Assembly: GCF_000154285.1 (NCBI RefSeq)
Contig: NZ_DS483478.1
Location: 62,001 to 126,000 of the forward strand
Length of the DNA: 64,000 nucleotides
Direction: 5' to 3'
DNA from: Amedibacillus dolichus DSM 3991
GTDB lineage: Bacteria; Bacillota_I; Bacilli_A; Erysipelotrichales; Erysipelotrichaceae
Position 1 is the first letter of the stretch, and each line of letters begins with the position of its first letter. The notes under the pieces are model-generated. The model worked only from the letters and a program-made list of their open reading frames with translations, was not told the DNA's origin and did no database searches. This document shows, one piece after another, positions 43,045 to 45,719 of this stretch. The translations under genes were made by a program, and so were the position numbers.

Positions 43045-43228
43045 TTATTTTATGCTGTATACCAAAAAGATATTTTGAATATGGACTGTTAGTGAATTTA
43101 TAAGGGCTAGAAAGAAGAGGTAAAGCATTCAAATAAATTTGAATTTTCATGAAAATTATCACGTATTTGTTTATTTTTCACGTTTATGTATAAAAAGTAG
43201 CGTAAGTATATAAGTAGAGGTGGTATGT

Positions 43229-43798
43229 ATGGAAATAAAAAAATTATATGAGCTTTTGGCACAGGATAATGCGCAGGGTGTTTTGGGGGATAAAATCTAT
43301 TGGAATGAGCTTTGGGATCATTATGTAGAAGAAAAGAGTGCGGATTATAAAAGCTTAGATGTTAAGGAAGGCATTTCACGTTTTATCTCGGATCAAAATT
43401 TGCGTATGCGAAGGAATGCGACGAATTGTGCGCAATTGGGAGTGGATATTCGTGTGGGAGATATTTGTTATATTGATTTTGGAGAAGCCTATGTATCGGA
43501 AATCGGTTATCAACACTTTGGTATCATATTGGCATTCTTTCATAATAAAGCATTTGTAGTGCCGATGAGTGGCAATCATACAGCTTATGTGCAGGCTTAC
43601 AGCAAGGATAATCCGAATGGAAAGCGTCATTTGATGCGTTTGGGAAAGGTGGAGGGCATGAATAAGGAAAGCGTATTGTTTATCAATGATGCGAAGTTTA
43701 TCAATACAGCTAGAATTATTGATGTTAAAGCACATTTATCCCGTCAAAGTGAGCTTTTTAAGGAAATCAAGCAGCGTGTGATCAAATGCTTGGAATGA
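43229..43798 (+). CDS. PemK/MazF-like protein without a visible antitoxin
   Basis: 189 residues. The C-terminal 110 residues have the MazF/PemK layout: IRVGDICYIDFGEAYVSEIGYQHFGIIL, AFVVPMSG, then SVLFINDAKFINTARI. An N-terminal helical extension of about 75 residues is unusual. MazF-type enzymes cut mRNA, but the normal small antitoxin gene is not present on either side. GAGGTGG precedes the ATG at 43229. Possibly a non-toxic relative or a toxin whose control lies elsewhere. Confidence 0.65.
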   Translation: MEIKKLYELLAQDNAQGVLGDKIYWNELWDHYVEEKSADYKSLDVKEGISRFISDQNLRMRRNATNCAQLGVDIRVGDICYIDFGEAYVSEIGYQHFGIILAFFHNKAFVVPMSGNHTAYVQAYSKDNPNGKRHLMRLGKVEGMNKESVLFINDAKFINTARIIDVKAHLSRQSELFKEIKQRVIKCLE

Positions 43799-43811
43799 AT
43801 TTCAAGGTGCA

Positions 43812-43853
43812 TGACAAAAACTGACAGAATATATAGGAAATCTCCTCTACAAT
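43812..43853 (+). promoter_or_regulatory. Spo0A-type promoter of spoIIE
   Basis: CTGACA (43821-43826) and TACAAT (43848-43853) are 21 bases apart, the abnormal spacing known for the Spo0A-activated spoIIE and spoIIG promoters of Bacillus. Two 0A-box-like repeats, TGACAAA (43812-43818) and TGACAGA (43822-43828), lie 10 bases apart and overlap the -35 (consensus TGNCGAA). Confidence 0.6.
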
Positions 43854-43871
43854 ACGGTAGAGGTGGTTGGA

Positions 43872-45719
43872 ATGGAAAGAACCATAGCATACAGAGAACA
43901 AAGAGAGGCAGTGCTGAAGCTAAGTGATGTCTATTGCATCGTATTAGCCCTTTTCGCAATAGGAATACCTACGGCTTTTCGTCCGGCTTTTCTCTTTGTT
44001 TATATAGCAGCTTTGGCATTAAGAAATACAAGGGAATGCGTACTGACAATTTTAACCTTGATGGTTTGTTTCCTATTACATAGTATGCGCTTGGCATATA
44101 TTTATGCCTTAGGCTTCTTGCTTTATTTTACGATATTACAAGCTGCAAGACTCCTACAGGCCAATATTTATCGCTTGCTTCCCTATATAAGCAGTGCACT
44201 TGTTGCCATATACAGTTTTATGGAATTTGCTTTGAGAAAGGAAGTAATCGTACTTCCACTTGTGACCTTTCTGCTTGTGAAAGAAATGCTGCACGATACG
44301 CGTTGGATCAATCATGATGAATTCTTTTATAAACGTATGAAGGAATTGTTGATTTTGGGTGGTATGTTTGCTTTGGTGGGAATACTTCCAAACTATGCTG
44401 TGTTATGGTATATGCTTGGGATTGCTTTGATATGTGGTTTGACATCAATGGAGATCGCAATTGGATTTTTGGTGGTATGTGCAATCTTTTTATCGTCATC
44501 TTTTACTTTGCCCTTGGCACTTATGGGCTTATGTGTGATGTATCAGCAACGAAAGCAGTTCTTATTCCTATGTGTGTTAGGCGGCTTTTATTTTATACCG
44601 ATGCGTTGGGAGATGTATGTCGGTGTGTTGGTGCTTGCAGGAATACTGTTGTTAAAGCAGCCGGTGTATGTAGATCAAAAGGAGCCAATAGCTTTGCCGC
44701 AGAATCAGCAGTTAAAGCGCAATATTGTAAACTATGCCGGTATTTTTCAGCTGTTGGCGGATTACTATGCCTCTATCAGTGATGTGGAAAGTGAATTGCT
44801 GTTTAATATGGCACAGGCTTTGGAATATCAAGCGGATATGCTGGTAAATGAGCAGGATATGGATCGGAAAAAGCAGATGATGAAGGAGGTTTTGGAGGAA
44901 TATCGCTATCGGGTACATCATATTCATTTGGAAGAGGAAATGAAAGGAATTATACAAATGGAGCTGGAACTTGGCAATATGCAAAAAAAAGAGCTGAAGC
45001 TTACGGTTCTTCCGCTATTGGAAAACTTAACCCATCAGAAGCTGCAAATTGAAACAGTTTTACGTCATCGTTGGCTGCCGAAAACCTATCGTATCCTTGT
45101 TACAAATAAAGCTGTACTGCCGATTGAAACTGTTTGCGACAGCCTTGGCAATGCGTATACGGAAAATGGTGATAGTCATAGTGTGTTTCGTTTCCAACAA
45201 AGTTTGGTATGTATGATTTCCGATGGTATGGGGAATGGGGAGCGAGCATTGCAGAGCAGTCGCTTGGTTACCGGTATGTTTCAACGCATGGTTACCGGTG
45301 GAATGTCGCAAAACAATGCTATTCGTTGTATCAATAAGCTAGTGCAAAGCGATACCTTTGCGACGCTTGATGTTTTATGTTTTCACGAAAGTGAACAAAA
45401 GCTGTATATTTCCAAATCAGCAGCTTGTCCGACATATTTGCTTCGACAGGGGAAATTGCAGGAGATCAACGGCAGTGCGCTTCCCATAGGGATTGTAACG
45501 CAGATGCAGCCGGATTGTTTCTGTATGGAATATTTGCCGGAAGATGAGTTTTTAATGGTAAGTGATGGCATTTCGCATAGAGAAATCGAAGCTTGGCTTG
45601 TGAAACGCAGTGGTAAAACACTTGATGAACAGGCAAAGGAGCTGCGCGAAATCTTGCATCAAAACAAGCGCTTTGATGATTCGACATTCATTTTCATAAA
45701 AGTAGGGAAAATAACATAA
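43872..45719 (+). CDS. spoIIE: Stage II sporulation protein E, membrane PP2C phosphatase
   Basis: 615 residues, shorter than the 827 of Bacillus. About ten N-terminal membrane helices (to about 270), a middle regulatory region, and a C-terminal PP2C domain with CMISDGMGNGERALQSSRLV, DTFATLDVLCF and FLMVSDGISHREIEAWL. In Bacillus it dephosphorylates SpoIIAA to activate SigF in the forespore. The order spoIIE-tilS-hpt-ftsH matches Bacillus and supports the call. GAGGTGG precedes the ATG at 43872. Confidence 0.88.
   Translation: MERTIAYREQREAVLKLSDVYCIVLALFAIGIPTAFRPAFLFVYIAALALRNTRECVLTILTLMVCFLLHSMRLAYIYALGFLLYFTILQAARLLQANIYRLLPYISSALVAIYSFMEFALRKEVIVLPLVTFLLVKEMLHDTRWINHDEFFYKRMKELLILGGMFALVGILPNYAVLWYMLGIALICGLTSMEIAIGFLVVCAIFLSSSFTLPLALMGLCVMYQQRKQFLFLCVLGGFYFIPMRWEMYVGVLVLAGILLLKQPVYVDQKEPIALPQNQQLKRNIVNYAGIFQLLADYYASISDVESELLFNMAQALEYQADMLVNEQDMDRKKQMMKEVLEEYRYRVHHIHLEEEMKGIIQMELELGNMQKKELKLTVLPLLENLTHQKLQIETVLRHRWLPKTYRILVTNKAVLPIETVCDSLGNAYTENGDSHSVFRFQQSLVCMISDGMGNGERALQSSRLVTGMFQRMVTGGMSQNNAIRCINKLVQSDTFATLDVLCFHESEQKLYISKSAACPTYLLRQGKLQEINGSALPIGIVTQMQPDCFCMEYLPEDEFLMVSDGISHREIEAWLVKRSGKTLDEQAKELREILHQNKRFDDSTFIFIKVGKIT

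Follow-up and report, generated by a model that had tools for sequence, protein, structure and literature searches.

The spoIIE gene of Amedibacillus dolichus DSM 3991 is preceded by what is very probably a sigma-A promoter that requires Spo0A~P. Comparison of upstream regions indicates that the conservation of a spoIIE promoter of this Spo0A type is real: the 21-bp spacing between the -35 and -10 elements is old, and the 10-bp tandem of boxes found at this particular promoter is a local solution. The window, i.e. the whole 64,000-nucleotide stretch of DNA analysed here, reads GCATGACAAAAACTGACAGAATATATAGGAAATCTCCTCTACAATACGGTAGAGGTGGTTGGAATG upstream of spoIIE. A -35 hexamer CTGACA (43821..43826, + strand, five of six positions matching TTGACA) is followed by a spacer counted at 21 bases (43827..43847, +) and a near-consensus sigma-A -10 hexamer TACAAT (43848..43853, +, 5/6), a position that is occupied by TACAAT or TATAAT-like hexamers in relatives. 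Over the -35 region lie TGACAAA (43812-43818) and TGACAGA (43822-43828), whose starts are 10 bp apart; direct reading confirms this repeat and the CTGACA-N21-TACAAT arrangement as located in the preliminary description. When the bottom strand is read, these correspond to a candidate 0A-like box overlapping the -35 element (43820..43826, - strand, top-strand letters ACTGACA), marked out by the equidistance of YGACA from the -10 element in the order and in Bacillaceae and by its strand preference, and to a second such candidate lying a helical turn upstream of the -35 box (43810..43816, -, top-strand CATGACA). The 0A-like boxes of the window match TGTCGAA at four to five of seven positions on either strand.

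Downstream of the promoter, a ribosome-binding site GAGGTGG (43860..43866, +) precedes spoIIE itself (43872..45719, +, assigned from SpoIIE profile and structure matches). The ATG at 43872 is more likely to be the start codon than the GTG at 43863, since the latter falls inside the ribosome-binding site. Judged by the position of the -10 hexamer, the transcript probably starts near 43860. The leader is very short, with 18 bases between the end of the -10 hexamer and the ATG (43848-43874, both elements included), so that the transcript would have almost no sequence ahead of the ribosome-binding site, and nothing notable was found in the RNA structure of the leader (z = -1.25). The gene directly upstream (43220-43798) has a weak PemK/MazF likeness (PF02452, E=0.15, under the cut-off), and the part encoding its C-terminus was seen upstream of spoIIE in many relatives (by eye, uncounted).

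The spacing was followed through the order in the DNA preceding spoIIE in 64 genomes, 36 from the window's own family (f1) and 28 from the second family (f2). These were drawn from 67 SpoIIE genomes (66 plus G026) by dropping G119, G135 and G091, where contig ends left no usable upstream sequence; locus L027 duplicates L069, and for L044 and L051 the start was assigned manually. A site was defined as CGACA or TGACA, a spacing of 10-31 bp, and then a hexamer matching TATAAT at 4/6 positions at least, with A second and T last. By this definition 56 of the 64 promoters have a 21-bp spacer and the other eight have 20 or 22 bp; no other single spacing occurs more than seven times, and shuffled sequences yield a mean of 0.30 and a maximum of 2 sites at 21 bp. 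At least one spoIIE promoter with 21-bp spacing is found in 16 of 18 genera of f1 and in all 11 genera of f2. The same YGACA-N21-(-10) arrangement is common to spoIIG of the order (upstream of SpoIIGA), for which 48 SpoIIGA places led to 30 fetched loci, 29 of them used (L076 being a second, partial match): 22 of the 29 have a 21-bp spacer, four have 20 bp, one has 22 bp and two are without a site. The spoIIG promoter of the window's own genome is among them, with TCGACA-N21-TATACT (L096). It differs from spoIIE in that there is no clear 10-bp tandem in spoIIG of the order, where 4 of 19 f1 loci have CA 10 bp above the core, a count equalled at another offset. Beyond the order, but within the class, TTCAACA-N21-TATAAT is found in five of seven genomes of one family (f9), and a similar site in one genome of another (f17); of the 17 more distant loci examined in the class, 11 lack a YRACA-N20-22 site by the criterion used. 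A conserved alternative -35 element at 17 bases would have argued against the 21-bp reading, and none of 166 sites has one at 16-18 bp, a result partly forced by construction, given that the fixed core caps the alternative hexamer at three matches for spacing 18 and at four for spacing 17.

In B. subtilis, Spo0A-activated sigma-A promoters have a -35 to -10 spacing of 21-22 bp, and its spoIIE promoter is reportedly of this kind, being sigma-A- and Spo0A-dependent. Close relatives of B. subtilis among the Bacillaceae sequences do show the 21-bp spacing at spoIIE. Among the best 80 of 245 Bacillaceae loci, in which L190, L192 and L193 (apparently wrong start) and L224 and L235 (weak -10) were retained, 71 have a 21-bp spacer and four have 22 bp, and the promoters read TTTTGACAAA-N21-TATAAT. 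The YGACA core, the 21-bp spacer and the TATAAT-like -10 element are common to both groups in these 71 of 80 loci, and the proposal that the activation geometry has been kept between Bacillus and the lineage of the window is supported as far as the spacing goes. What surrounds the core is different. All 71 Bacillaceae loci with a 21-bp site carry a GTCGA box upstream of the core, at a distance of 33 bp (49 loci) or 32 bp (22 loci), whereas the window has a weak box 10 bp upstream instead. GTCGA is found 32-33 bp above the core in none of the 64 promoters of the order, and once each at 37 and 74 bp. In the Bacillaceae column profile this box occupies -33 to -28 and is preceded by AAA, and the letters adjoining the core on its upstream side are CCTTCT, with no GACA-like repeat there. 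In f2 the profile has single columns only (T-20, T-19, C-10, A-4, A-3 and A-1), and in f1 it has C-7 and A-6 only above position -2, no column from -62 to -8 passing 0.5 bit. The Bacillaceae core TTTTGACAAAA moreover holds a perfect TTGACA, where the window has CTGACA. The tandem near the core belongs to the window's family, and its earlier description as a Bacillus design does not hold for Bacillaceae spoIIE, where CCTTCT and the GTCGA box 32-33 bp upstream stand in its place. The window site probably belongs to the broad class of Spo0A-activated sigma-A promoters, with its 21-bp spacing, near-consensus -10 element and a Spo0A with a conserved DNA-binding domain in the same genome; of the features of the Bacillaceae spoIIE subtype, both the distal GTCGA and the perfect TTGACA are absent.

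Outside these groups, PMC13395437 describes a predicted, unmapped Spo0A site near the -35 element of C. difficile spoIIE, placed as in B. subtilis and with CAAAAA beside it, a likeness to the window, which has CAAAAA at 43815-43820. According to the same source, CAAAAA in C. difficile is the CamA methylation site; a link to CamA-type methylation was dropped for the order, as only 7 of 64 promoters contain CAAAAA. Sporulation genes of Erysipelotrichales are treated in PMC10868615, whose main text does not contain the word "promoter". The literature search found nothing joining Spo0A, the 0A box and Erysipelotrichaceae, and no comparison of spoIIE promoters of such kind in titles and abstract openings; older B. 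subtilis promoter papers fell mostly outside its scope, and it is no proof of absence.

The preliminary description had read the boxes on the top strand, as 0A boxes that had drifted by an A for G at position 5. In PMC3485338, Spo0A of B. subtilis is described as reading TGTCGAA with contacts to G2, C4 and G5, and the same letters are said to be needed by the C. difficile protein. Scored against this box, 26 of 36 f1 spoIIE cores favour the bottom strand and none the top strand, with ten ties; the bottom strand is also better in 16 of 17 f1 spoIIG, in 6 of 10 f2 spoIIG (top in none) and in 72 of 75 Bacillaceae sites. For f2 spoIIE the outcome is ambiguous, with five bottom and ten top of 28. 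The top-strand reading, which is not better in f1 spoIIE, in spoIIG of either family or in Bacillaceae, probably takes the wrong strand, and on the letters of the window both readings are weak. Upstream of spo0A in the same genome (C4, L072:8570-8769) a perfect TTCGACA precedes a TATAAT by 30 bp, and two TTCGACC lie 10 bp apart, all in the same orientation as the bottom-strand reading at spoIIE; this suggests self-regulation of spo0A.

The most serious alternative, which is nevertheless improbable, is that YGACA serves simply as a sigma-A -35 element, that the promoter is merely too long, and that the 0A likeness of YGACA comes from an accidental overlap of TTGACA with TTCGACA. The window's CTGACA does match TTGACA at 5/6 positions, and the Bacillaceae core TTTTGACA contains TTGACA in perfect form. 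A plain -35 element would, however, favour T as the first base of the core, where the window's family has C in 53% of its spoIIE and 88% of its spoIIG sites, and in f1 the bottom-strand reading of the core is a perfect 0A box, TTCGACA, at 12 of 36 spoIIE and 7 of 17 spoIIG promoters. Nor would a plain promoter gain anything from a 21-bp spacer or from a repeat 10 bp above it.

The preferred reading is a promoter that requires Spo0A~P. The -10 and -35 elements would be about 4 bp too far apart for good use by RNA polymerase alone; Spo0A~P would bind the box on the -35 region, with help from the second, weak box a helical turn further up, and would touch region 4 of sigma-A, allowing the polymerase to start. 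The gene would then be expressed at high Spo0A~P, before polar division. We infer Spo0A binding, the sigma contact and activation at spoIIE from sequence, and both partners are encoded in the genome. Its Spo0A (275 aa) has receiver and Spo0A_C domains, its DNA-binding domain closely matches solved chains, and its recognition region SRVERAIRHAIEVAW is identical to theirs; the neighbouring genes look like spoIVB and recN. The Spo0A_C domain is likewise found in 65 of 66 SpoIIE genomes, the exception being G122. The SigA protein retains the region-4 end ALRKLKHP, reportedly the surface that meets Spo0A in B. subtilis.

The genome also encodes another protein whose DNA-binding domain is of the Spo0A type (C4, L002:1480-2208, 242 aa) and in which Pfam finds no receiver at E <= 10. 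In 20 selected relatives (L252-L271), the column of the phosphorylation site holds Asp in 11 and another residue in nine; the protein of the window's own genome has Glu. That this protein, and not Spo0A itself, is the main binder of the boxes is very unlikely: at least two Spo0A_C matches occur in 33 of the 42 f1 genomes with Spo0A_C, which together with the presence of the gene in this genome would speak for it, but f2 genomes mostly have a single match (all but the g75 genomes) and yet share the same promoter geometry.

In contrast to the spacing, the tandem is local. In f1, xGACA exactly 10 bp above the core is found in 7 of 36 promoters, from seven genera, and at any other offset in one at most. 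An upstream CA 10 bp above the core, the sole upstream element exceeding 0.5 bit in the family, is found in 21 of the 36. Taking the majority within each genus, 12 of 18 f1 genera have CA at -10, and any other offset from -30 to -5 has it in two genera at most. The tandem was not seen in f2 spoIIE or in Bacillaceae. Within f1, the upstream CA accompanies only one of 12 promoters with a perfect TTCGACA, versus 20 of 24 with an imperfect box (Fisher p 2.3e-5, inflated by related rows); counted by genus, the proportions are 1/5 and 11/13 (p 0.022). When the labels are placed on a 30-row SpoIIE tree, the one for absence of the tandem is clustered (5 changes versus a shuffled mean of 10.0), while the CA label (7 versus 7.8) and the GACA label (6 versus 6.4) are unclustered. 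By these counts the 10-bp tandem is a trait of f1 that is mostly absent where the -35 box is perfect.

The fixed part of these promoters would then be the placement of Spo0A on the -35 region at 21 bp, with the surroundings rebuilt in each lineage: Bacillaceae would keep a distal box at a distance of about three helical turns, and f1 would have either a single perfect box where the -35 element stands or a weak one backed by another box a turn further up, the quality of the box and the presence of the tandem compensating for one another. We regard this wider scheme as evenly poised between right and wrong. If it is true, the geometry of the Spo0A-sigma-A complex would impose an unchanging constraint on the initiation of sporulation, from Bacillus to the order Erysipelotrichales, the signature YGACA-N21-TANNNT before spoIIE or spoIIG would help to flag uncultured lineages with a working sporulation start, and the alternation of one good box with two weak ones would be a natural experiment in cooperative binding.

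The significance of the motif comes from its conservation at one fixed spacing across species, and not from the window alone. YGACA-N21-TANAAT has two matches in the window, where 0.54 are expected, and at least two in 11 of 100 shuffles; across the whole genome YGACA-N21-TAHAAT has 10 matches versus 21 for a reversed control pattern. The only exact match to the tandem TGACARANNNTGACARA in the window is the spoIIE site; allowing up to two mismatches gives seven matches versus 2.88 expected. Significance within a single genome was rejected, there being no excess in window or genome. That the motif reflects shared ancestry or chance with no function is the least probable reading of all, already disfavoured: the window motif alone is within chance and related genomes are not independent, but the core and spacing persist where SpoIIE proteins of the family are 24-39% identical to that of the window and no f1 column from -62 to -8 exceeds 0.5 bit, and the design recurs at a separate locus, spoIIG.

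The gene 3' of the promoter encodes SpoIIE (PF07228, E=3e-18); its phosphatase domain can be aligned to SpoIIE chains of known structure, and it matches TIGR02865 at E=1.2e-31, yet under the curated cut-off of that model. The protein was described earlier as much shorter than that of Bacillus, and it is indeed short, but this is not peculiar to the genome: open frames of 571-683 aa are usual in f1 (33 matches, E <= 1e-28, the set to which the 24-39% identity with the window's protein refers), and 28 of 30 open frames in f2 have 714-763 aa, the remaining two being truncated. Across the phylum, a SpoIIE search at E <= 1e-100 returned none of 149 genomes, a threshold too strict to be informative, as the window's own genome failed it too. 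One genome (G140) has a second, longer SpoIIE (L132, an 841-aa open frame on a separate contig), which is either contamination or a second gene; it matches TIGR02865 with 459 bits, and the other copy in G140 with 233 bits.
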